DNA from: Opitutales bacterium
Lineage (GTDB): Bacteria; Verrucomicrobiota; Verrucomicrobiia; Opitutales; Oceanipulchritudinaceae
Assembly: GCA_020831525.1 (NCBI GenBank)
Contig: JAFIGH010000059.1
Coordinates: 1-32,258 of the forward strand
Length of the DNA: 32,258 nucleotides
Direction: 5' to 3'
Shown: positions 3,377 to 27,764 of the stretch, piece after piece
Layout of the letters: each line of letters starts with the position of its first letter
Numbering within the stretch: the stretch's first letter is position 1
Notes under the pieces: model-generated
The model's input: only the letters and a program-made list of their open reading frames with translations
The model's database searches: none
Told to the model about the DNA's origin: nothing
Position numbers and translations under genes: made by a program

Positions 3377-5938
3377 ATGTTGCAGATGATTCCATTGAAC
3401 TCTCTTTCACGACGCCTTCATGGCGGGGCCATTACCGTCGCCACGACCGCTTTTCTCCTCTGCGGTGCCCTGCATGCTCAGGTGGATGATGACGATGTCT
3501 ATGTACTCGATCCGTTTACGGTCTCGGGGGGCGAAGTGCGCGGTTATCAAGTGCGCAACACACTCTCGGCCACCCGCTTCAATGCCATCATCCGCGAAGT
3601 TCCACTGACGATCACCTCCCTCACGCGGGAGTTTCTGGAGGATACCTATTCGCTCACTCTTGAAGACTCCGTGCGCTTCACCGCCGGCGTCACTCAAGGG
3701 GCTTCCAGCACCGCCGAGGAAACGGGCGGTTTCTACATTCGCGGCTTGCGCACGCTTCGCTCCAAGCGCAACGGAATCAACCAGCTCTACAGCCAGGACA
3801 TGACCAACGTCGAGCGGGTCGAGGTCGTGAAGGGACCGATGTCCCTTCTCTACGGCCAGGTGGAGCCGGGCGGGATCGTCAACTACCTCACGATGCGCCC
3901 GCTTGAAGAGTTCCGCACGGATGTGCAACTCACGTGGGGCAGCTACGATCACTACCGTGCGCAGATCAACCACACCGGCCCCCTCTACGCGGGGCGCGAC
4001 GACAGTCGGCACCAGGTCCTTTACCGGTTTGACGCTTCCTACAAGCGCGACGGAGGCTGGCGCGAGAACACCGAGGACGAGCGCTCCTTCTGGTCGGGGC
4101 TCCTTCAATACAAACCGTTCCGACGCACGACGGTCACCGTGCAATGGGACTACCTCAATCAAAACTCTTTCAATACATCGCCGCTTCCCGAGTACAACAC
4201 ACAGTGGCGTGAGATCTTCGAGGATCTGGTGGGGGGCTTCACCGAACCGGTGCAGAACCTCGGGGTGCGCGTCCTCGCCGGGCAGGACCCGCGCGACAGC
4301 TATACGCTGAATCCGCCCGTGACCTTTACCGACGCGGGCACAGGGCAGCCGTATGAGTTCTATTCCGCCTCGTCGCAGGGCAACCGCTTTTGGGACAGCT
4401 ACGCCGAGTTCTGGGGCCGCCGCAACAACTTCGTGCCGGCCAACGCCTTCAACAATGTTGACCAGCACACGGTCTCGCTCGAGGTGCGGCAGCAACTCGG
4501 TGAAGCGTGGGCTTCGCGCCTCTATGTTGTGCACCACAACATCGTGCGGCGCTCGGCATGGGGCGATATTTGGGCGCTCGGCCTTTCCGGCGACAAGGCC
4601 GCGGGCTATTCATGGAACCACTTCAAGCGGCGTAATTTTGATTTCACCGGGCAACTTGAGATCACCGGACGGTGGAACCTTGGCCATGTCGAGAACCAGA
4701 CGTTTATCGGCCTTGAACATATGAATGACAACTTCCGCGGTTCCGTGGCGACGGGCGGCGGAAGCAATATCGTCAATCCGGAAATCGCCGATGCGGTGGC
4801 GGACGATCCCTTCAATCCGATCACCGGTTCGACGTTCCTCGTCCCCGGTCGCTTTGAGATCGATCTCAACCGCCCCCTTGAGCCGCAGAACTTCCAGGAC
4901 CGCAAGAACTACTCCGCCTTTATCTCCAACCTCAGCCGCTTTCTCGATGACCGGCTGCTCATTCTCGCGGGTATTCGCTACGACAAAGAGGAATCCCAGC
5001 GTGTGGAGCGCCCCGGCCTACCGCTGAACACCTCGGAGGAAACGACGATCCAGTTGGGCACGTCTTATCGCCTCAACGAGCAGATCAATCTCTACGCCTC
5101 CTACAGCGAGTCCTTCCGCCCACAAAATGGGTTTGTCAACCGTATCAAGTCCGACAGCGCAATCGCAGCCGAGCTGGAAAGACCACCGGGCGAGCGCGTC
5201 TTCACCGATCCGGACCCGCTTAGGCCGATCAGCGGTACGGGATATGAGGTGGGCGCGAAATTCGACCTCTTTGACGACCGCCTCTCCGGATCGTTCGCGT
5301 TCTTCCGCGTCGAACTGAGCGGCGTGCCCAAGTCCTTCTCCTTCGCTGTGCCCGGCGCTTTCGACGACAGCGGCAACCAGCAGACCGCGATTGTCGGCAA
5401 CCAGAACAACGGGCGCCGTGTGGAAGGTTTTGAAACCGAGTTGTTTTTCCGTCCGACGGACAACTGGCAGTGGGTCTTCACCTACGCCTTCCTCGATTCG
5501 GTCGAGATTCTCAACCAGAATGTCGTCGAAATCCGCGAGGGCAACGCTGTTCCGACGAACATACCTTCCATCTCCGTGCCTGAGCACCAGATCGGCCTCT
5601 GGACCAAATACACATTCGGCGACGGTCGCCTTGACGGGCTTTCCATCGGGGGCGGATTCAATTGGTTGGACAAGCGTTACGGTGCTTTCCAACTCCGCAC
5701 GGAGAATCCGGCCGCGGCCAGCTTTGTCGGAACGGACGACGCCGTGGAAAAGCAGATTCTTCTGGGCTCGCAGATTCTCTTTGACGGGATGATCGCCTAT
5801 ACCTTCCGCAGCCGCGACCGGTTTGAGCACACCATCCAGCTCAACGGCCGCAATCTTGCCAACCGCAGGTACGTCCATCCGGGCGGCATGCCCCAGGACC
5901 CGCGCATCGTCTACCTCACCATCAAGAGCCGCTTCTAA
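3377..5938 (+). CDS. TonB-dependent outer-membrane receptor
   Basis: Outer-membrane receptor of 853 residues for TonB/ExbBD-energised import, here probably of oligosaccharides. After a signal peptide (TVATTAFLLCGALHA) comes DDDDVYVLDPFTVSGG, a Verrucomicrobiota-style TonB-box region. The plug domain (about 45-170) contains FYIRGLRT and VERVEVVKGPMSLLYGQVEPGGIVNY. A 22-strand-type barrel follows and ends in IKSRF, with the terminal Phe used as an outer-membrane assembly signal. There is no N-terminal carboxypeptidase-like or secretin domain, so it is the simpler receptor type and not a classic SusC. The start at 3377 (or the in-frame ATG at 3386) was chosen because it places the signal peptide correctly. 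The gene lies 37 bp after the beta-helix gene and 37 bp before the next one, so the group is probably co-transcribed. The substrate is not shown by the sequence. Confidence 0.92.
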   Translation: MLQMIPLNSLSRRLHGGAITVATTAFLLCGALHAQVDDDDVYVLDPFTVSGGEVRGYQVRNTLSATRFNAIIREVPLTITSLTREFLEDTYSLTLEDSVRFTAGVTQGASSTAEETGGFYIRGLRTLRSKRNGINQLYSQDMTNVERVEVVKGPMSLLYGQVEPGGIVNYLTMRPLEEFRTDVQLTWGSYDHYRAQINHTGPLYAGRDDSRHQVLYRFDASYKRDGGWRENTEDERSFWSGLLQYKPFRRTTVTVQWDYLNQNSFNTSPLPEYNTQWREIFEDLVGGFTEPVQNLGVRVLAGQDPRDSYTLNPPVTFTDAGTGQPYEFYSASSQGNRFWDSYAEFWGRRNNFVPANAFNNVDQHTVSLEVRQQLGEAWASRLYVVHHNIVRRSAWGDIWALGLSGDKAAGYSWNHFKRRNFDFTGQLEITGRWNLGHVENQTFIGLEHMNDNFRGSVATGGGSNIVNPEIADAVADDPFNPITGSTFLVPGRFEIDLNRPLEPQNFQDRKNYSAFISNLSRFLDDRLLILAGIRYDKEESQRVERPGLPLNTSEETTIQLGTSYRLNEQINLYASYSESFRPQNGFVNRIKSDSAIAAELERPPGERVFTDPDPLRPISGTGYEVGAKFDLFDDRLSGSFAFFRVELSGVPKSFSFAVPGAFDDSGNQQTAIVGNQNNGRRVEGFETELFFRPTDNWQWVFTYAFLDSVEILNQNVVEIREGNAVPTNIPSISVPEHQIGLWTKYTFGDGRLDGLSIGGGFNWLDKRYGAFQLRTENPAAASFVGTDDAVEKQILLGSQILFDGMIAYTFRSRDRFEHTIQLNGRNLANRRYVHPGGMPQDPRIVYLTIKSRF

Positions 5939-5975
5939 CAACTCCCTTCATCACGAACACCAACCCATTGATACA

Positions 5976-6929
5976 ATGAAATATCCGACATGTCTACTTG
6001 CCCTCAGTTTATTGACCGCATCGACAGCCTCCGCCGAGGAGGTTGTCCGCATCCATCCGGCGTTCGACTCCGGACGGGTGGCCACGAATGACCTGTCCAC
6101 GACGGACTTCCAGCAGTGGTCTAACGGCACCGGTTCCTCCCGCGCCAATAACGTCGGCTGGAACGAAAGCCGCGGCATTTGGTATAGCTTCATCCGCTTC
6201 TCCGGTCGGCGGCAGGAAGGCACAGAGTGGTTCGGTCTCGAACTCTCCGAGTGGTTCGAGCGTCTCGATGCCGCGGGTTCCATCACCCTCCGCGGCGATG
6301 TCAACTGGCTGGAGATCAATCCGGACTTTCCCGGAGAGGCGGGGGTTGACGTCTCCGTGTGGCTCATCCCGGGGATGGACATCGCCGAGGGGAGCTTGCC
6401 CGGCTTTGGCAACACCTGGCCGTGGAACTACGCCAACCGCATCAAGGTCGAAACGATTCTTGTCGAGGATATGATTCCCCTGAGGGCCAGTTGGGACGAT
6501 GCCGAATTCGATCCCGTCGATACACGGGACAAGATGGAGTATCACCTCCAAATCGATCTCACCGGCGCCGTGAAGAGCGCCATTGCCGACGGGTTGATGT
6601 CGGCGTCGACTCCGTGGGGAATTGTTTTCTTCCCCGAGGAGATGGAGGACCAACTCGATGTGCCGAACAACCCGCAGTGGATCGACCGGCGCCAGACGGT
6701 CCTTCACGGAGGCTTCTGGGAAATCGTTTTCGAGGAGGGTGACGATCCGCCGCCGGTAACTTGGGCCGGGTTTGCGATTGAGGAGAGCGGATGGGTCGAT
6801 ACCGGCGCGTTTCTGGGCTGGGTGTATCCCCTCGGAAACTATGTTTTTGTCTCTGATATTGAAGGCTGGATGTTTTTGCCCGAGACCCATGTCGACGCCG
6901 ACGGGGCGTGGGCGTTTCCCATCCGCTGA
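5976..6929 (+). CDS. exported DNRLRE-like protein, tandem paralogue 1, with Opitutales-type C-terminal module
   Basis: Protein of 317 residues with a signal peptide (CLLALSLLTASTASA) followed by EEVVRIHPAFDSGR. The body (about 22-255) looks like an all-beta DNRLRE/CBM96-type domain: an N-terminal strand set, WYSFIRFSG, and a late helix-strand element HLQIDLTGAVKSAI...TPWGIVFFP that resembles the 'WDVTSLV..W..G..NYGLLI' signature of that family. The last 55 residues (WAGFAIEESGWVDTG...GAWAFPIR) are nearly the same as those of the next gene and related in style to the tail of the 190-3339 protein. It sits directly behind the TonB receptor and 24 bp before its paralogue. Carbohydrate binding at the surface is likely but not proven; no catalytic motif is visible. 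Confidence 0.8.
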   Translation: MKYPTCLLALSLLTASTASAEEVVRIHPAFDSGRVATNDLSTTDFQQWSNGTGSSRANNVGWNESRGIWYSFIRFSGRRQEGTEWFGLELSEWFERLDAAGSITLRGDVNWLEINPDFPGEAGVDVSVWLIPGMDIAEGSLPGFGNTWPWNYANRIKVETILVEDMIPLRASWDDAEFDPVDTRDKMEYHLQIDLTGAVKSAIADGLMSASTPWGIVFFPEEMEDQLDVPNNPQWIDRRQTVLHGGFWEIVFEEGDDPPPVTWAGFAIEESGWVDTGAFLGWVYPLGNYVFVSDIEGWMFLPETHVDADGAWAFPIR

Positions 6930-6953
6930 TTGCCGCACCTTGTACCGCCAAGC

Positions 6954-7928
6954 ATGAAATCCATTAAAGCACTCCTTCTTTTATCCTTCGGCGCGGCCTC
7001 CGTCTTGACGCTCGCGGCAGAGGAAGTCATTCAAATCCACCCGCGTTTTGACTCCGGTCGCCTGCGCACAAACACCCTGCTTGACGGGCAGAGTTTCAAC
7101 CAATGGACTAACGGCACGGGATTCAACTGGGCCAATAACGTCGGCGTGAATCCGCAGGGTATCTGGTATAGTTTCATCCGCTTTGCCGGTCCGCGCGCAG
7201 AGGGCGATACGCTCTTCGGTGCGGAACTCGCCGATCTTCATGGCATGCTCGATGCCGCCGGCAGTGTAACGCTCCGCGGTGACGTGCTCTGGCACGAGCG
7301 CGACGCGGACTTTCCGGTCGATCCCGGTGTGACCGTTTCGGTCTGGCTCGTGCCGGGCATGACGATTCCGGAAGGACAGTTCCCGACTTTTGCCAACACA
7401 TGGCCGTGGAACTATCCGGACTCTGTGAAAGTCACGAGCTTTGCTCCGGAAGAAACGACCCCCTTGCGCGCGAATTTTAATGCCGCCGAGGCGGATCCGG
7501 TCACAGAACGTTCCCAGATGGCCTACAACCTGAGAATCGACCTCACGGCGGCTATCCATGCTGCGATTGATGCGGGCACGATGACGGCGACGACGCCATG
7601 GGGCATCGTTTTCTTCCCCGAATCGATGGAAGATCAGCGTGATGTGGCGAACAATCCGGCTTGGCTCACCCGCGAGGGGACGGTTCTTTCGGGCGCGTAT
7701 TGGGAGGTGGTCATTCAAGAGGGCGATCCGGGCGACCCGGTTGATCCCGATCCGGATACCTGGGCCGGATTCGAAATCGAGGAGTCGGGTTGGGTCGATA
7801 CGGGCGACTTCCTTGGCTGGATTCATCCCATGGGCGATTTTGTATATGTCCTTTCGCTCGAAGGCTGGATGTATTTGCCTGCCGCGCATGTGGAAACCGA
7901 CGGAGCGTGGGCCTTTGTCATTCGATGA
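6954..7928 (+). CDS. exported DNRLRE-like protein, tandem paralogue 2
   Basis: Protein of 324 residues, clearly a tandem duplicate of the upstream gene. They share EEVIQIHPRFDSGR, WTNGTGFNWANNVG, IWYSFIRFAGPR, TPWGIVFFPESMEDQ and the closing module WAGFEIEESGWVDTG...GAWAFVIR. The signal peptide is ALLLLSFGAASVLTLAA. A short PGDPVDPDPD linker joins the beta domain to the C-terminal module, which supports the module being a separate unit. An in-frame TTG at 6930 would extend the N-terminus, but ATG 6954 gives the better signal peptide. The function is probably binding or display of polysaccharide at the cell surface, inferred from fold style and position. Confidence 0.8.
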   Translation: MKSIKALLLLSFGAASVLTLAAEEVIQIHPRFDSGRLRTNTLLDGQSFNQWTNGTGFNWANNVGVNPQGIWYSFIRFAGPRAEGDTLFGAELADLHGMLDAAGSVTLRGDVLWHERDADFPVDPGVTVSVWLVPGMTIPEGQFPTFANTWPWNYPDSVKVTSFAPEETTPLRANFNAAEADPVTERSQMAYNLRIDLTAAIHAAIDAGTMTATTPWGIVFFPESMEDQRDVANNPAWLTREGTVLSGAYWEVVIQEGDPGDPVDPDPDTWAGFEIEESGWVDTGDFLGWIHPMGDFVYVLSLEGWMYLPAAHVETDGAWAFVIR

Positions 7929-13772: not shown

Positions 13773-14576
13773 ATGAGAAATATAAAATCACTCCTTGTCA
13801 CCGCCCTTGCCTTGGGCACGGCGGCCTCGCTCACCGGACAGGTCATCAACCTTCCGCTCAACCCAGGCGCATCCGGGCGCATTATGTCAAACAATGGTCC
13901 TGAACACCTTGGGGGTGGCAATATTTCCGGCGTTGAGAACCTCAACGATACGGGAGATGCCATTGTCGGTGACAACCCAGGAAACAACTTCAACTTCTCC
14001 CTCATCATCGGTTTCGACACGACGGCCGCCTTTCGGACCGCTGTCGCCGGCGGTGCCCCGGTGATTTTCAGCGGTATGAGCCTCTTCGGTGTGGACGACG
14101 GCTTTGGCGGCGTGGACGTTAAGTCGACCGGCAATGTCGATTGGGCTCCGATTTCCGCGAGCGTGAACGCCGTTGGCAGCGCAACGGACGCGCCCTACGG
14201 CGATAGCAACAACTTCCGTCGTCATGCCGCCTTCAACCTGGGCGATGGCGCGAGTGCAGCGGACAACTACGCCGTAGCCGGCCCCTTGGTCTTCGCGGGC
14301 AATCCGTATGCCGAGAGCACCTCCTTCTCCGTGGATATGACGAGTGTTTTCGCCGGCCTTCCTCTGTCGGATGACAACAGCCGGGTAATGATCGGCATCA
14401 GTGCATGGACGCCGGACCTCTCCGCTATCCTGAGCGCCAACAGTATAGGCGACCGCGTCGCCTTTGTCGGCAGCTCGATGGAACTCACAGCCATCCCCGA
14501 GCCCTCCACCTACGCCGCCATCTTCGGCCTGTTTGCGATCGCCGGTGTGATGCTTCGACGCCGCCTGCGCCGCTAA
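13773..14576 (+). CDS. PEP-CTERM sorting-domain exported protein
   Basis: Exported protein of 267 residues. A signal peptide (SLLVTALALGTAASLTGQ) is followed by a beta-rich body starting INLPLNPGASG. The C-terminus has the tripartite PEP-CTERM signal: AIPEPSTYAA, a hydrophobic stretch (IFGLFAIAGVML) and basic RRRLRR. This signal is handled by an exosortase-type membrane enzyme, placing the mature protein at the envelope or in the extracellular matrix. The body is not a family I recognise. It is probably transcribed alone, with a palindrome and promoter candidate upstream and a strong terminator 21 bases downstream. Confidence 0.9.
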   Translation: MRNIKSLLVTALALGTAASLTGQVINLPLNPGASGRIMSNNGPEHLGGGNISGVENLNDTGDAIVGDNPGNNFNFSLIIGFDTTAAFRTAVAGGAPVIFSGMSLFGVDDGFGGVDVKSTGNVDWAPISASVNAVGSATDAPYGDSNNFRRHAAFNLGDGASAADNYAVAGPLVFAGNPYAESTSFSVDMTSVFAGLPLSDDNSRVMIGISAWTPDLSAILSANSIGDRVAFVGSSMELTAIPEPSTYAAIFGLFAIAGVMLRRRLRR

Positions 14577-18521: not shown

Positions 18522-19553
18522 CTACACGGTCCGCCCGTCCTGCCAATAGCCCGTGATGCTCATGTGCTTGGGGTTGGCGGGCGGGCCGTATTCGTTGCGC
18601 AGAATGTGGGCGGCGAGGAGGTCCACCGCCGCCGAGCCCAGCTCCCGCGCCCCCACGTTGACGCCCGCCATGGGCGAGTTCTCTTCCGCGATGGCGAGGT
18701 GGGTGAGGGCGACGTCGCGCGGAACCCGCAGGCCCAGCTCCCGGAGCCAGTCCGCAACTTGGAAAAAGGTCGTGAGGATGGCCTCCGGTCGATGGCGTTC
18801 ATACCATTTGCGGAACCGTTCGAGGCATTCCGCCCTGCGCGGTTCGACATGGAGGTCCGTCAGCGGGGGCAGGCGGTCGCGTGTATTCAACCGGCGCTGC
18901 TGGTAGAGGTACCCGCCTTCATGCAGGCCGCGCCCCTGCACCGCCATGTAGCGGTTCTCGCAAAAACCGATCCGTTGGCGGCCCGTGGCCAGCAGATGGT
19001 CGAAGGCAATCCGCACGTTCTCAAAGGCATTCGGCCGCACCGTATGGATGGGCTTGCCGCCGGCGGAGTTGCCGAGGCTCACCGCCGCCCAGTGCGGCGA
19101 AGCTGTGAGTTCCGGGCCGTAGTAGTGGATGTTGGGGACGATGATGCCGCGGATGCCCCGCGCGCGGAGGATGCGCTCCACTGTCTCCATCCGCGCTCCA
19201 TGCGTCTCGATGTCCGTGGCGAGCGGGAATCCTTGCGCCGCCGCCCGCGCCCGCGCGCCTTCCAGATAGGGCCGCACCCACGGAAAGTAGCCCGCCGCGT
19301 GGTGCTCCGGCGTCGCCGTCAGCCACGCAAGGTTGCACGCGGGCGCTTCTCCCGTGCGCCGCCGGATGTGCGCGGCATACGCGCTCACGAGCGGATTCGC
19401 CGCGTAACCCAGCTCCCGCCCCTTCGCCAGAACCCGCTCCCGCGTCGCCGCCGCCACCCGCGGATCGTTCCGCAGCACCCGCGACACCGTTATGTGCGAA
19501 ACCCCCGCCGCCGCCGCCACTTCCCGCATGTTCGCCGCGCCCACTTTTGCCAT
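18522..19553 (-). CDS. LacI-family transcriptional regulator
   Basis: Regulator of 343 residues. The DNA-binding head (about 8-55) reads MREVAAAAGVSHITVSRVLRNDPRV then VLAKGRELGYAANP, a typical LacI HTH plus hinge. The sensor domain (about 65-330) belongs to the same divergent subgroup as the protein at 9684 (GIRGIIVPNIHYYG; VDLLAAHILRNEYGPPANPKHMSITGYW). It is divergent from the PEP-CTERM array, with 107 bp between the start codons, and convergent with the beta-helix gene. It probably regulates itself and a nearby sugar gene set. The ligand is unknown. Confidence 0.93.
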   Translation of the reverse strand: MAKVGAANMREVAAAAGVSHITVSRVLRNDPRVAAATRERVLAKGRELGYAANPLVSAYAAHIRRRTGEAPACNLAWLTATPEHHAAGYFPWVRPYLEGARARAAAQGFPLATDIETHGARMETVERILRARGIRGIIVPNIHYYGPELTASPHWAAVSLGNSAGGKPIHTVRPNAFENVRIAFDHLLATGRQRIGFCENRYMAVQGRGLHEGGYLYQQRRLNTRDRLPPLTDLHVEPRRAECLERFRKWYERHRPEAILTTFFQVADWLRELGLRVPRDVALTHLAIAEENSPMAGVNVGARELGSAAVDLLAAHILRNEYGPPANPKHMSITGYWQDGRTV

Positions 19554-19555
19554 GA

Positions 19556-19566
19556 CACATGGAACA
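19556..19566. promoter_or_regulatory. CACATGGAACA block, copy 1, upstream of PEP-CTERM copy 1
   Basis: CACATGGAACA lies 105 bp before the ATG at 19661. The identical 11-mer lies 96 bp before the next paralogue (20641-20651), and CACATGGAAC lies 62 bp before aguA (27760-27769). It may be a shared control site or simply a part of the duplicated upstream region. Confidence 0.3.
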
Positions 19567-19660: not shown

Positions 19661-20497
19661 ATGAATAAAACGCTCCTCTCATTCTTCGCGGGCTGCTGCC
19701 TGTTGGCTACGGCCAACGCGACCATTATCGCTAGCTTCGGCGGCAGTGGAATGGTCTCCGAAAATCAAGGTCTCGGCGGCAATCCTACTCCCGATTATTC
19801 CGATGCGATTAGCCCGGCCAGCGGCTACACCGGTCAAACCTTCTACGGTGGTGTTGTCCCGACGAATACGACGGTGGATAGCTGGTTCATCTCGAATAGT
19901 GTCGCCCGGGGCGGTGTTGGTATGCCTGCGCTGGACTGGATATCGGCAGAGACCGGTTCAACCACGGACGGCGCCGGAACAAAATTCCACCGTGGCGTGG
20001 TTTTGTTTCAGCAAAGCGACTTTCTTAACTACTCCACCAACCCGGGCGGTGTCACGATGGACGACACCAGCTCGATGCAAGTCGCCGTTCAACGTAGCTC
20101 GGGGAACCCCAGCCGTTTCGGATTTGTTGTGCAAACATCTGAGAGTGACTTTTACGTGGGTGGGATCACGACATATGATCAATTCTCTGGTACCGGTTTC
20201 GATCCGAACTTCACGAACGGACATTTTCTCAGTATTTCAGACCCAACGTCACTTGATTGGTTTGCATTGAACACGACCACCCACCAGCAAGGCGCTTCCG
20301 CTACGGTGGATTTCTCCAGCATCATCGGAGTCGGTGTTTGGTTTGAAAACGAGCGTGCTTCCAATTCCGCGGCTGGACTCGGCTGGCACATGACCGGAAT
20401 TGAAATCACCGCCATCCCCGAGCCCACGACCTACGCCGCTCTCTTCGGTTTGCTCGCCATCGGCTTTGTCCTTGTGCGCCGACGTGTGCGGGCCTGA
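19661..20497 (+). CDS. PEP-CTERM exported protein, tandem copy 1
   Basis: Exported protein of 278 residues. The signal peptide (LLSFFAGCCLLATANA) is followed by TIIASFGGSGMVSENQGLGG, a region shared with copy 2 (STLVVGYSGTGYVSANQPLGG). Further shared blocks are SGYTGQTFYGG, GVVLFQQSDF, SGNPSRFGFVV and GVGVWFENERA. The tail AIPEPTTYAALFGLLAIGFVLVRRRVRA is a canonical PEP-CTERM signal. Overall similarity to copy 2 is moderate, but the last 27 residues and the DNA beyond the stop are almost identical. The function of this lectin-like beta body is not recognised. It is divergent from the LacI gene, which may control it. Confidence 0.9.
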   Translation: MNKTLLSFFAGCCLLATANATIIASFGGSGMVSENQGLGGNPTPDYSDAISPASGYTGQTFYGGVVPTNTTVDSWFISNSVARGGVGMPALDWISAETGSTTDGAGTKFHRGVVLFQQSDFLNYSTNPGGVTMDDTSSMQVAVQRSSGNPSRFGFVVQTSESDFYVGGITTYDQFSGTGFDPNFTNGHFLSISDPTSLDWFALNTTTHQQGASATVDFSSIIGVGVWFENERASNSAAGLGWHMTGIEITAIPEPTTYAALFGLLAIGFVLVRRRVRA

Positions 20498-20530
20498 TCT
20501 TTTGAATACGTTTAGGGGGTTATGGTTTAC

Positions 20531-20568
20531 CCCCGGCCGGGCAGGGGTGCCCGGCCGGGGCTTTTTTT
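20531..20568 (+). terminator. strong rho-independent terminator after PEP-CTERM copy 1
   Basis: CCCCGGCCGGGC (20531-20542) and GCCCGGCCGGGG (20549-20560) form a perfect 12-bp GC stem with loop AGGGGT, followed by C and seven T. It lies 33 bp after the stop codon. Confidence 0.95.
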
Positions 20569-20640
20569 ACGTCTCTCCGCCCGGAAGCCCGTGGACAAGG
20601 CGGGCACCGTCCAAGCCGTTCATGCCGTCTATGCTCATGG

Positions 20641-20651
20641 CACATGGAACA
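20641..20651. promoter_or_regulatory. CACATGGAACA block, copy 2, upstream of PEP-CTERM copy 2
   Basis: The same 11-mer as at 19556-19566, 96 bp before ATG 20737. Retention at the same distance while the surrounding sequence has diverged hints at a function. Confidence 0.3.
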
Positions 20652-20736
20652 TCTCTGTTCTCTTGAGTGCGCGGGCCGGTCTGCTTGGCTCTTACGGTTA
20701 CTGCATGTTTCACCCAAAACCCGGAATCCAGAATCA

Positions 20737-21567
20737 ATGAATACCAAGACCTCTCTCTTCGCGGCAGCGGGCCTCGGCCTGCTTGTTTCGCTTCAAGCCT
20801 CGACGCTTGTCGTCGGGTACAGCGGCACCGGCTATGTTTCGGCGAACCAACCCCTCGGGGGCGCGGGCACGGCCTTCGACAGCGGGGTGCCGATTTCGCC
20901 TGCGGCGGGCTACACCGGCCCGACCTTCTACGGCGCGGTGGCGACGAGCGATTCCTCGGCCGCGCCCATTTCCGATTGGGCGATCTTTAATGATCTCTTC
21001 TTCGCAAACATTCCCCTGACGAGCGACTGGATCGGAATTGCCACGGGATCGACCATGGCCGGCGCAGACAAACACCACTATGGATTGGTGTTTTTCAAGC
21101 AGGAGGATTTCTCGGATTTCAGCACGCTTCCCGGCGGTGTGAGATTGAGCGCGGATACGAAACTGTCGTTCCGCGTTCGCCGCACGGGGGGCAATCCGTC
21201 TTTCGTTCGCTTTGTCATTGAAACCGATGCGGGTTTCTTTGCGAGCAGCTCGACCGAACTGTCTTCAGGCCAAGCCAACGGCGTGGAGCTGGTCGCCCTG
21301 GCCGATCCGACTTCGACCAATTGGTTCACCTATGATCCGGCGACGTCGATATCAGTCGTTGGGGGCGCGTCGAATCCTGACCTCACAAACGTGATTGGTA
21401 TGGGCATTTGGTTTGACAATGTCCGCGCGGGCAGCGCGATGAGCGGCATGGGTTTCTATGTCACCGATATCCAGCTGACCGCCATTCCCGAGCCCTCGAC
21501 CTACGCGGCGCTCTTCGGTTTGCTCGCCATTGGCTTTGTCCTTGTGCGTCGGCGCGTGTGGGCCTGA
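20737..21567 (+). CDS. PEP-CTERM exported protein, tandem copy 2
   Basis: Exported protein of 276 residues with signal peptide LFAAAGLGLLVSLQAS and mature start TLVVGYSGTGYVSANQPLGG. Shared blocks with copy 1 include GYTGPTFYGA, GLVFFKQEDF, GGNPSFVRFVIET and GMGIWFDNVRAG. The tail AIPEPSTYAALFGLLAIGFVLVRRRVWA is a PEP-CTERM signal. Its first 30 codons and its leader are nearly identical to the truncated third copy at 22026. Its last 27 codons and downstream terminator are nearly identical to those of copy 1. The middle is divergent. It probably sits at the cell envelope; its role is unknown. Confidence 0.9.
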   Translation: MNTKTSLFAAAGLGLLVSLQASTLVVGYSGTGYVSANQPLGGAGTAFDSGVPISPAAGYTGPTFYGAVATSDSSAAPISDWAIFNDLFFANIPLTSDWIGIATGSTMAGADKHHYGLVFFKQEDFSDFSTLPGGVRLSADTKLSFRVRRTGGNPSFVRFVIETDAGFFASSSTELSSGQANGVELVALADPTSTNWFTYDPATSISVVGGASNPDLTNVIGMGIWFDNVRAGSAMSGMGFYVTDIQLTAIPEPSTYAALFGLLAIGFVLVRRRVWA

Positions 21568-21601
21568 TTTTTTGAATACGTTTGGGAGGGTATGGTTTAC
21601 C

Positions 21602-21638
21602 CCCGGCCAGGCAGGGTGCCCGGTCGGGTTTTCTTTTT
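21602..21638 (+). terminator. decayed duplicate of the copy 1 terminator
   Basis: CCCGGCCAGGC (21602-21612) and GCCCGGTCGGG (21618-21628) pair with one A-C mismatch and one G-U pair, followed by TTTTCTTTTT. It is the duplicated form of the 20531 terminator and still looks functional. The DNA from the stop codon to here matches copy 1 closely, including GAATACGTTT and TATGGTTTACCCCCGGCC. Confidence 0.8.
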
Positions 21639-21683
21639 AAGCCTCCTCCGTTCGGAAGCGCGTCGAAAGGCCCGATGGTAGTA

Positions 21684-22029
21684 ATGAAAAACTTGTTTTT
21701 ATTCTACACAATATCCATTGTTCTGCAGTGGATCTCTTTCTGGAGGTTTTTTGGGCATGAGAATCATGGCGGGAGAATCTTCGGAGTCGTGCTTGTAGCT
21801 TCTACATTGCTGTCTGCGGTCTTAGCTTTTTTCGTATCGAGAAACTTGCATGGGAAAAGCATTAGAAACTTTTTTTTATTCCTTACCGCATGTTGCGTTA
21901 TTAATGAGTCCGATAATATTTCTCTTGCTGCTTGCGGATAAGAAACGAATGGGAAATTCGAAATTTGAACGATATACGTTGGGTAGAAAGAAAGTTTCCA
22001 CCCAAAATCCCGGAAACCAGAATCAATGA
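21684..22029 (+). pseudogene. AT-rich small membrane protein gene with a frameshift at a T8 run
   Basis: Starting at ATG 21684 (or 21675), the frame encodes hydrophobic segments FLFYTISIVLQWISFW and IFGVVLVASTLLSAVLAFFV, then reaches a run of eight T at 21870-21877. Reading on in frame gives a short meaningless end (stop at 21939-21941). Dropping one T gives a third hydrophobic segment, VALLMSPIIFLLLL, and a basic cytoplasmic tail ADKKRMGNSKFERYTLGRK, stopping at 22027-22029. A real three-helix membrane protein of about 114 residues is therefore likely. The cause could be mutation, sequencing error or slippage at the homopolymer. Base use is far more AT-rich than its neighbours, so it is probably acquired. 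Its last codons are made of the leader of the third PEP-CTERM copy. Confidence 0.6.
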
Positions 22030-22136
22030 ACACCAAGACCTTTCTTTTCGCGGCAGCGGGCCTCGGCGTGTTGGTTGCCCTTCAAGCCTCGACCCTTGTC
22101 GTCGGGTACGGCGGCGTCGGCTCCGTAATCACCTGA
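22026..22136 (+). pseudogene. truncated third PEP-CTERM copy (signal peptide only)
   Basis: The frame MNTKTFLFAAAGLGVLVALQ followed by ASTLVVGYGGVG matches copy 2 codon for codon in most places and then stops after SVIT. Only the signal peptide and about ten mature residues remain; the body and PEP-CTERM tail are gone. The 30-base leader before its ATG also matches copy 2. The stop is 14 bases before the CE15 start, so the deletion has brought the esterase gene directly behind this leader. Confidence 0.85.
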
Positions 22137-22150
22137 AAACGCCCTTCCGA

Positions 22151-23443
22151 ATGCGCCGTCGCCATACATTTCAGAGAATCCTTCTGCTCTTGCTTCCGTT
22201 CATCGCCACGGCTCAACTGCAAAAGATGGAACCGACCCGACACGAGGAATCGCAGGTGCCGGCCTATACCTTGCCGGACCCGCTGGTAATGGAGGACGGC
22301 ACGCCCGTGGCCGAAGCCGGGCAGTGGTCGGCCCGCCGCGCGGAGCTGCTGGAGATCCTCTCCGCCCGCCAATACGGGTTTGCGCCCCCGGTCCCGGTCA
22401 GCGTGAAAGGGAAAGTCGTGTCCGAGGACAGCGACGCTCTGGACGGTGCGGCGACAATGAAGCAGGTGGAGGTCGTCCTCACGCACGGTGACAAGTCCCG
22501 CACCCTCGGGCTGCTTTTGTTTCTTCCGAATGCGGCCGCGCAGCCCGTCCCGGCGTTTGTCGGACTGAATTTCTTCGGCAACCACACCTCGCACGCCGAT
22601 CCCCGTATCCGCCTGCACGGAAATTGGTCGCCCAACAACGAGGCCCTGCGCGTGACCGATAACCGGGCCACGGAGGATTCGCGCGGGTTGCGCGCCCACC
22701 GTTGGCCGGCGGAGGAAATCATCGCGCGCGGTTACGCCCTCGCCACTGTCTATGCTGGCGATGTCGACCCCGACCACGAAGACGGCTGCAAAGACGGCGT
22801 GCACGGGCTTTTCGGCGAAACGGACCACACCGCGCCCCCGGAGGAGCGCTGGGGCACCATCGCCGCATGGTCATGGGGCCTGTCGCGAATTCTGGACTAC
22901 ATGGAGGAAAGCGAGCCCGCCGTCGACGGTGCCCGCGTCATCGCCCTCGGCCATTCCCGCATGGGCAAGGCGGCCCTCTGGGCGGGTGCCACCGACACCC
23001 GTTTCGCCGCCACCATTTCGAATAATTCCGGCTGCGTCGGCGCCGCCCTGCACCGCCGCCGTTTCGGCGAGCGCCTCGTCGACATCAACACCAACTTCCC
23101 CCACTGGCTCAACGACCGGTCGAAGTCATTCAACGAGCGGGAGTCCGACCTTCCTTTTGATCAGCACCAACTCCTCGCCCTCATCGCCCCGCGCCCGCTC
23201 TATGTCGCCAGTGCGGCAGAGGATCTCTGGGCCGATCCCAAAGGCGAGTTCCTCGCGCTGCTCCATGCCGAACCGGTTTGGCAACTGCTCGGGATTCGTT
23301 CCGATCTGCCGCGGGAGATGCCCGATGTCGGCGGTTCCCTTACCGGCCCCTTGGGCTACCACATCCGTCCGGGCAAGCACGACCTCCTCTCCGAGGACTG
23401 GGTCCGTTTTCTCGACTTCACCGACCGGATGGCAGGATCATGA
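22151..23443 (+). CDS. CE15 glucuronoyl esterase
   Basis: Exported alpha/beta hydrolase of 430 residues that cleaves ester bonds between lignin alcohols and 4-O-methylglucuronate side chains of xylan. The N-terminus RILLLLLPFIATAQ is a signal peptide. Nucleophile Ser269 lies in GHSRMGKAALWAGATD; the catalytic His410 lies in GKHDLLSEDW; SAAEDLWADPKGEF holds Glu357/Asp358. From memory, the characterised Opitutus terrae CE15 has Ser and His 141 residues apart, the same spacing as here. The position after the nucleophile that is Glu in many members (SNESG) is Asn292 here (SNNSG), so Asp358 is the likelier catalytic acid. The stop overlaps the next start as ATGA, indicating coupling with the alpha/beta hydrolase. 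The start at 22151 gives the signal peptide. Confidence 0.92.
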   Translation: MRRRHTFQRILLLLLPFIATAQLQKMEPTRHEESQVPAYTLPDPLVMEDGTPVAEAGQWSARRAELLEILSARQYGFAPPVPVSVKGKVVSEDSDALDGAATMKQVEVVLTHGDKSRTLGLLLFLPNAAAQPVPAFVGLNFFGNHTSHADPRIRLHGNWSPNNEALRVTDNRATEDSRGLRAHRWPAEEIIARGYALATVYAGDVDPDHEDGCKDGVHGLFGETDHTAPPEERWGTIAAWSWGLSRILDYMEESEPAVDGARVIALGHSRMGKAALWAGATDTRFAATISNNSGCVGAALHRRRFGERLVDINTNFPHWLNDRSKSFNERESDLPFDQHQLLALIAPRPLYVASAAEDLWADPKGEFLALLHAEPVWQLLGIRSDLPREMPDVGGSLTGPLGYHIRPGKHDLLSEDWVRFLDFTDRMAGS

Positions 23444-27387: not shown

Positions 27388-27764
27388 GAGTCGATGATGG
27401 ATTTGTGGTGAAAGACGATCTGCTGATCGGTCTCGCAGGGAACGCCGCCGCACCCCACAGAGGTATTTTGGCGGTTTTTCGCGAGATTGAGGGCATGGCA
27501 TGCCGCCCCCGCGCGGACTTCGGGATCGCTGTGGAGGAGAATCGAAGCCGGTATGTTCACGCGGAAATGAATCTAGGGATAAAGGCGGTCGGTTTCGGAG
27601 AGAGCGACTACCCAGCGCGGCTCCTGCAGAAAACTGAACTCTTCGTGCGGTCGATTGCCTTCGAGGCGGGCGACGGGGATCTCGCGCATTTTCACCGGTC
27701 CTTCAAAGGGCGTTTCCGGCAAAATCCGGGGGCCTGCCGTGGGGCGGCCGAAGCGATGACACAT
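27384..27764 (-). pseudogene. unidentified gene interrupted by an in-frame TAG
   Basis: From ATG 27764 the frame reads MCHRFGRPTAGPRILPETPF, FLQEPRWVVALSETDRLYP and meets TAG at 27573-27575. The same frame then continues for 62 codons (HFRVNIPASILLHSDPEVRA; GCGGVPCETDQQIVFHHKSI) and stops at 27384-27386 as ATGA with the MetE-like start. The exact overlap with the next gene and the coding look on both sides of TAG suggest one gene of about 126 codons broken by a single nonsense change. I do not recognise the family. It could be the tail or a short version of a longer protein. Confidence 0.4.

Follow-up and report, generated by a model that had tools for sequence, protein, structure and literature searches.

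PEP-CTERM genes in the genome of an Opitutales bacterium, when set beside those of its sister species, show as a pattern the replacement of gene bodies at fixed places: both ends of the gene and the DNA around it correspond, and a different body stands between them. The pattern is described here from a stretch of 32,258 nucleotides (nt) (assembly GCA_020831525.1, contig JAFIGH010000059.1, positions 1 to 32,258 of the forward strand; henceforth the window, to which all coordinates without a further label refer) that holds two complete tandem PEP-CTERM genes, c1 (19661..20497, + strand, 278 amino acids (aa)) and c2 (20737..21567, + strand, 276 aa). Each encodes a signal peptide, a body and a C-terminal PEP-CTERM segment; here and for the third element introduced below, c3, signal peptides were called by eye from the translations. 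We consider it reasonably probable that homologous recombination at the conserved ends has brought about both the conversion of tails and the replacement of bodies; that recombination runs through the ends, and that the cell gains anything by it, is what we infer.

The window (contig C121) belongs to a genome of 5.3 Mb, G000, which was compared with that of a sister species, G010, with a further genome, G009, and with two genomes of a second genus, G015 and G016, each species being represented by one assembly. Stretches fetched around PEP-CTERM genes carry L-numbers.

Two tandem genes with like ends

Sliding-window identity is not uniform along c1 and c2, as an initial annotation of this DNA had anticipated: it runs at ∼0.4–0.7 in the body, reaches 0.9 at ∼20408 and lies at ∼0.7 over the terminator. 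The c1 body (19733..20410, +) has 37–39% aa identity to the c2 body, and the DNA identity of the two is ∼50%. A 3′ block that begins 9 nt before the PEP-CTERM codons and ends 185 nt past their start, and so takes in these codons, the spacer and the terminator (20405..20598 in c1 and 21475..21668 in c2, both +), is 86% identical over 196 nt. Both blocks are predicted to fold into a stem-loop that is followed by U-rich sequence, the terminator-like stem being placed at 20531–20560 in c1 by a pattern scan and the stem-loop at ∼21602–21628 in c2 by the predicted fold. The conserved end and divergent body described for these copies are thus upheld, although at 86–90% the ends fall short of the near identity that had been claimed for them.

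The likeness of the tails goes beyond conservation of the protein, because third codon positions at identical residues agree more often in the tail (19/26) than in the body (31/84; Fisher p 0.0015); a slightly different cut between tail and body gives 18/25 versus 32/85 (p 0.003), and in two control pairs of orthologs the same test finds no difference between tail and body (p 0.36 and 1.0). We therefore speak of the c2 tail as homogenised with that of c1. Nowhere else in the genome does the tail block recur complete with spacer and terminator (40 of 57 candidates scored). The idea that the tail is a dispersed mobile repeat is not supported: the other 36 matches to its DNA are at most 100 bases long and are confined to PEP-CTERM codons.

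At its other end c2 resembles a different partner. Its leader block, with ribosome-binding site (RBS) and signal-peptide codons (20707..20833, +), matches a block at 21994..22122 (+) that had been taken for the leader of a third gene copy. The likeness in leader and signal-peptide codons is real and extends over ∼127 nt, at 88% rather than near identity, but the premise of three copies was wrong, because c3 is a leader fragment: an open reading frame (ORF) of 36 aa (22026–22136) that has an RBS and a signal peptide but lacks both body and PEP-CTERM, so that only two genes are complete. Sharing of ends is therefore confined to the tail for c1 and c2 and to the leader for c2 and c3, and no two units share both. 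The c2/c3 leader has no other match in G000 at E 0.01, and the family of c1 and c2 bodies has no further member in G000 at E 0.001.

The same place in the sister species

In G010 the corresponding place (contig C72) consists of a LacI gene, two PEP-CTERM genes named s1 and s2, and then a different neighbour, which may be PilT-like. The second gene, s2, is the ortholog of c2 (67.8% aa identity over 276). The first, s1, stands at the position of c1: an upstream stretch of 80 nt at the LacI start is 85% identical to its counterpart before c1, and the two tails match as far as the end of the terminator (74% over 160 nt). Between these ends the bodies of c1 and s1 have no detectable relation by local alignment (z −0.8), and a profile of the c1, c2 and s2 bodies, shallow as it is, gives the s1 body an hhalign probability of 0.1%. 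Among 10 genomes of the family no other match to the s1 body was found. The c1 body is a distant paralog of the c2 body. A structure model was of no help, since AlphaFold2 on c2, with c1 as the sole other aligned row, reached a mean predicted local distance difference test score (pLDDT) of 45, too poor for a fold search.

Segments of the unit are accordingly not inherited together in this relative: at the c1 position the upstream region and the tail are conserved and the body is not. Strict vertical inheritance of every segment, which the initial annotation had named as speaking against its reading, is thus not what is seen. Tail codons of c1 and c2 are 0.90 identical to each other and 0.78–0.82 identical to either G010 tail, as conversion of tails within the G000 lineage would give.

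A pattern of body replacement at syntenic places

In G000, 62 PEP-CTERM matches pass the cut-off (150 of 154 candidates scored), as do four matches to the exosortase family PF09721. In the stretches from G000, G010 and G009, 130 PEP-CTERM genes were kept after 6 of 136 regular-expression matches had been dropped as spurious; those from G010 and G009 are among the matches listed, with two genes of G009, on C367 and C382, left out. In the hand-listed comparison that follows, three start codons (L130_45, L113_19 and L153_75) are set too far upstream, which affects leader columns and, slightly, body lengths.

Syntenic pairs between G000 and G010, 24 in number, were listed by hand from alignment chains. 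Their bodies fall into two groups, 17 pairs with identities of 0.63–0.94 (among them L124_37/L165_91 and L129_42/L166_92, whose placement rests on little beyond the gene itself) and seven with identities of 0.25–0.36. The latter are c1/s1, c0/L157, L107/L154, L124/L164, L138/L172, L134/L173 and L110/L160, where c0 (13773..14576, +) is a third complete PEP-CTERM gene in the window, and no relation is detectable between its body and the one that G010 carries at the corresponding place; c0, c1 and c2 all match PF07589 and TIGR02595 above the cut-off. Alignment of the bodies gives z-scores of −1.3 to 1.9 in five of the seven, 5.5 in L134/L173 and 15.5 in L110/L160. Tail codons are 0.75–0.91 identical in the seven and 0.63–0.93 in the rest: the ends of low-identity pairs are as conserved as those of ordinary orthologs, and between them stand bodies of ∼157–255 aa with low or no similarity.

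A second pairing, by automatic mapping with aligned flanks demanded, likewise yielded 24 G000–G010 rows, with 15 at 0.62 or above, eight below 0.36 and one at 0.43, the last being a double mapping (L123_4912/L174 was dropped on this ground). The eight low rows are the seven above and L115/L152 (0.32, z 4.6; body identity only). Among rows with G009, two of seven from G000 and one of five from G010 lie under 0.36. At one place occupied in three species the body of L196 has no detectable relation to that of L134 or L173, and these two are themselves weakly related.

The clearest case is L107/L154, in which DNA identity is 79% up to codon 24, similarity is absent over 641 and 647 nt, and identity then resumes at 89% over 1.4 kb. 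Homology restarts at the 3′ side 2–12 nt before the PEP-CTERM codons in nine of ten low-identity pairs, and 24 nt before them in the tenth. When the homology of the ends was scored against 396 random pairs (95th percentile 67 for the 3′ end), the 95th percentile was exceeded by the 5′ scores of 10/10 and the 3′ scores of 8/10 low-identity pairs.

Interruptions of this kind are concentrated in PEP-CTERM genes. In the G000–G010 chains DNA similarity is interrupted by 11 islands that measure at least 200 nt in either genome. Of these, six, all longer than 400 nt, lie in PEP-CTERM genes, which span 19.5 kb versus 75.6 kb of other sequence (the c0 body is outside its chain and was left out of the count). 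The islands of L107, L124 and L138 have no homology detectable by tblastx or tblastn, and weak body homology is found in L110 and L134. The five islands elsewhere comprise three with protein homology (two of them over 400 nt), one of 209/207 nt and one of 360/1320 nt. When only islands of at least 400 nt are counted, 6/8 are in PEP-CTERM genes and 2/8 elsewhere, both of the latter with protein homology retained.

Body and ends can also point to different relatives. At the L129/L195 locus the G009 gene L195_1486 matches position 1 of G000 in its ends (0.84 upstream, 0.88 in the 3′ untranslated region (UTR)), and its body is 0.68 identical in aa to position 2 versus 0.49 to position 1. For several swapped bodies a relative exists at another locus, in some cases in a gene without PEP-CTERM. 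Two further profile tests of swapped partners gave hhalign probabilities of 0.1% each; two bodies with relatives at other loci gave 86% and 97%, the former being the relation of the L172 body to the c2 family. The G010 body at the place of c0 is 32–33% identical in aa to the main domain of the window genes at 5871–6929 and 6930–7928. These two are tandem genes without PEP-CTERM and have no Pfam match (E up to 0.01).

Homogenised tails in tandem genes of two genera

Homogenisation of tails is not peculiar to c1 and c2. Of 44 tandem pairs from five genomes, 14 (c1/c2 included) have tails that exceed the bodies in synonymous identity at a nominal, uncorrected p<0.05, and the reverse was found in 0/44; the four tandem pairs of G010, s1/s2 included, are not among the 14. 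In a second tandem pair of G000 (L106:4368-6451) the tails are 98.7% identical over 224 nt and the leaders 79.6% over 383 nt, with bodies at ∼30% aa identity and third positions in agreement at 27/28 sites of the tail versus 28/73 of the body. In the second genus the pattern is strong: an array of six genes in G015 (L206:4153-9033) and a syntenic array of five in G016 (L249:3576-7616) have tails that are 78–98% and 80–93% identical within the array and bodies that are 23–48% identical, and between the two species the tails are 69–79% identical, one 28-nt match aside.

Tail homogenisation is reproduced in G015 and G016; clear body swaps are not. Body identities in 15 of the 18 syntenic G015–G016 rows form a continuous series between 0.36 and 0.80 (five PEP-CTERM places of G016, four on C9 and one on C21, were left out). 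Three rows lie below 0.36, two of them in arrays where pairing is ambiguous; in the third the ends lack conservation. This last, L227/L248, the lone low row outside arrays, was rejected as a swap: the score of its 3′ end is 31, and the L227 body has a relative of 65% identity elsewhere in G016 (L247).

How ends could be kept and bodies changed

The following scheme would account for these observations. In this genus a PEP-CTERM gene would consist of two conserved modules around a body, one of promoter, RBS and signal peptide, the other of PEP-CTERM codons, spacer and terminator. Recombination between such genes, with the ends serving as homology, would homogenise the tails of tandem neighbours; it would also replace the body at a fixed place by that of another family, and sister species would then carry the same ends around unrelated middles. 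The products would be exported and sorted by exosortases, and the set of surface or matrix proteins might change in consequence. The orphan leader c3 would most likely be a scar of the same process. Gene conversion or cassette-style exchange had been proposed in the initial annotation as the origin of the array; homogenised tails fit the former, and bodies at syntenic places show a pattern of replacement. Silent donor cassettes were not seen. A broader and more tentative version, which we think possible but would not bet on, holds that PEP-CTERM genes form a genome-wide display platform, with dozens of fixed addresses, converted ends and a cargo reloaded from a shared pool of bodies.

A number of observations weigh against recombination through the ends. 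At the c1 locus itself the signal-peptide codons of c1 and s1 (71%) are no more alike than those of c1 and c2 (75%), the 5′ support for the pair comes from farther upstream, where the LacI gene starts (−150 to −71), tblastx gives two weak matches in the c1 island (E 8e-5, antisense frames), and the tails of s1 and s2 show no significant excess over their bodies (p 0.21). Elsewhere, the best 5′ block of c0/L157 and of L138/L172 precedes the start codon, and L134/L196 (59) and L173/L196 (53) are the pairs whose 3′ scores fall below the 95th percentile. Intermediate body identities (0.45–0.49) occur in 3 of 12 G009 rows, and a clear swap in 0/18 syntenic rows of the second genus. No donor of high identity was found, the longer matches to swapped bodies in the first genus being ∼22–48% identical, and no recombination event was observed with one assembly per species. 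Finally, bodies are weakly homologous in L134/L173 (27% over 227 aa) and L110/L160 (30% over 169 aa), from which it follows that fast divergence contributes.

The main rival, to which we give a minor but real share of the probability, is tandem duplication followed by differential deletion. Here each place would originally have carried two adjacent PEP-CTERM genes; unequal crossing-over, at the leaders in one species and at the tails in the other, would leave identical outer ends around different bodies, and no new body would enter the locus. Arrays with near-identical tails and dissimilar bodies, which such a history starts from, exist in G000, G015 and G016 (L106 is an example), and an orphan leader such as c3 is the type of scar that it is expected to leave. 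Against it, in the stretches fetched no swapped locus was seen whose two bodies stand next to each other in some other species, and at the place with three species L196 is unrelated to two bodies that are weakly related to each other.

That no exchange took place at all, the bodies having diversified extremely fast while functional ends were held, seems to us rather unlikely. The weak homology in L110/L160 and L134/L173 is in its favor, as are the array bodies of G015 and G016, which form one family despite their low identities, and the continuous spread of body identities between these genomes; GC content at third codon positions (GC3), too, is lower in bodies of the low class (0.651 in 16, including the L106 pair, versus 0.751 in 32; p 0.0003). 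Rapid divergence does not, however, readily give the two separate identity groups of the G000–G010 comparison, profile tests that are negative for three swapped pairs and positive for two bodies at other loci, homogenised synonymous sites in tails, or the discordance between body and ends in L195.

It is very improbable that PEP-CTERM genes without any relation to each other entered one intergenic site independently in each species: the genomes hold many such genes (62 over the cut-off in G000), but leader, tail and 3′ UTR align with the syntenic flanks in one chain, and the scores of the ends surpass those of random pairs in nearly all cases. Programmed antigenic variation, with an expression site fed from silent donor cassettes, can be set aside with even greater assurance, for although conserved ends around a variable center, and c3 as a promoter-side fragment, recall it, both complete copies have a leader, start and terminator-like stem of their own, and neither the c2 body family (in G000) nor the s1 body (in 10 genomes) has a further copy.

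Setting of the locus

Upstream of c1, and divergent from it, lies a gene for a LacI-family regulator (18522..19553, −; PF00356 and PF13377 above the cut-off), a conserved neighbor in G010, where it is 72% identical in DNA over 1079 nt of C72. The 14-base motif TGRCACATGGAACA occurs at the start codon of this gene, upstream of c1 (19553..19566, +), and again upstream of c2 (20638..20651, +), and these are its only exact matches in the 5.3 Mb of G000. G010 has matching sites upstream of s1 and of s2, plus one further site; G003 has two, and none was found in G009, G002, G015 or G016. TGRCACATGGAACA is probably the operator of the neighboring LacI protein; regulation of the address would then stay the same through any change of body. 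A copy with one mismatch lies at 27757, upstream of a GH67 gene. A scan for sigma-70 promoters found one where 1.0 was expected.

Downstream of c2, synteny with G010 (in the chain with L068) ends at 21570, before a glucuronoyl-esterase-like gene (22151..23443, +; PF22244, E 3.5e-31) that starts 28 nt past the orphan leader block. The DNA between c2 and that block (21660–21993) is low in GC, at 0.40 versus 0.62 for the window, and contains an ORF of 85 aa (21684–21941) that resembles a membrane protein and has no accepted family match; synteny with G010 stops just before it. The rest of the window encodes GH43 and GH67 proteins, a TonB receptor, pectate-lyase-like and melibiase-like proteins and a second LacI regulator, because of which the region looks like a LacI-linked locus for the utilisation of xylan and glucuronate. 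This setting beside genes for xylan degradation suggests that what changes in the proteins might be the binding of glycans. Near another swapped gene, L138:5055-6266 encodes a regulator with Peripla_BP_3 and an AraC-type helix-turn-helix domain. A scan of 10 proteins encoded within or close to swapped loci, which are part of the neighbors and include three without a family match, found no recombinase.

Significance and relation to known systems

PEP-CTERM proteins are numerous and little-understood exported proteins of environmental bacteria. If bodies are indeed replaced between conserved ends, then orphan PEP-CTERM genes could be traced by their address, calls of orthology based on full-length similarity would mislead, and the ends would offer a simple handle on the turnover of exported proteins in strain collections. 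Should the broader platform exist as well, many of the PEP-CTERM orphans now counted as gained or lost would be reloaded genes at old addresses. New middles between the same ends may let a cell reload its surface with new proteins. The literature searched, in which broad queries covered the top matches only, yielded no account of PEP-CTERM genes whose bodies are replaced.

Gene conversion is known from the concerted evolution of tandem duplicates, by which copies become more alike within than between species. The tails described here resemble it in being closer within species, at synonymous sites too (s1/s2 excepted), but differ from it in that the effect reaches no farther than the 3′ end and its terminator, and the bodies diverge.

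Antigenic variation of the type of msp2/p44, vlsE and pilE is defined by an expression site and silent donors, and this arrangement is not what is seen here. The Anaplasma msp2 expression cassette has a variable center between conserved 5′ and 3′ ends, with recombination as its source, and as described in PMC2789410 this single cassette is supplied from silent pseudogenes in the course of infection. The PEP-CTERM genes, in contrast, comprise many complete genes at many places, their differences are between species, and their bodies often have no detectable homology. The MASP family of Trypanosoma cruzi, according to the account in PMC5636173, also has conserved flanks around a variable mature center, but belongs to a eukaryotic parasite with different machinery. 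Segmentally variable genes are defined in PMC387263 by a stretch of 70 aa or more that varies and is set among regions of good conservation. The genes analyzed here have such a region; that class is, however, defined by comparison, whereas here the middle appears to be replaced.

The genes also resemble the PEP-CTERM/exosortase families of Haft et al. (2006, PMC1569441), with a signal peptide, a body of low homology, a C-terminal PEP-CTERM, many copies in a genome and poor orthology among close species. There the 83 PEP-CTERM proteins of two closely related cyanobacteria, Nostoc and Anabaena, were resolved into 27 ortholog pairs and 29 unique proteins, and the absence of orthologs was explained by genes being duplicated and lost often; the main text of that paper nowhere uses the word stem 'recombin'. 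Unlike the account given in that text, several of the present cases share both place and ends and have another body, which suggests that some such missing orthologs are genes whose middles have been replaced.

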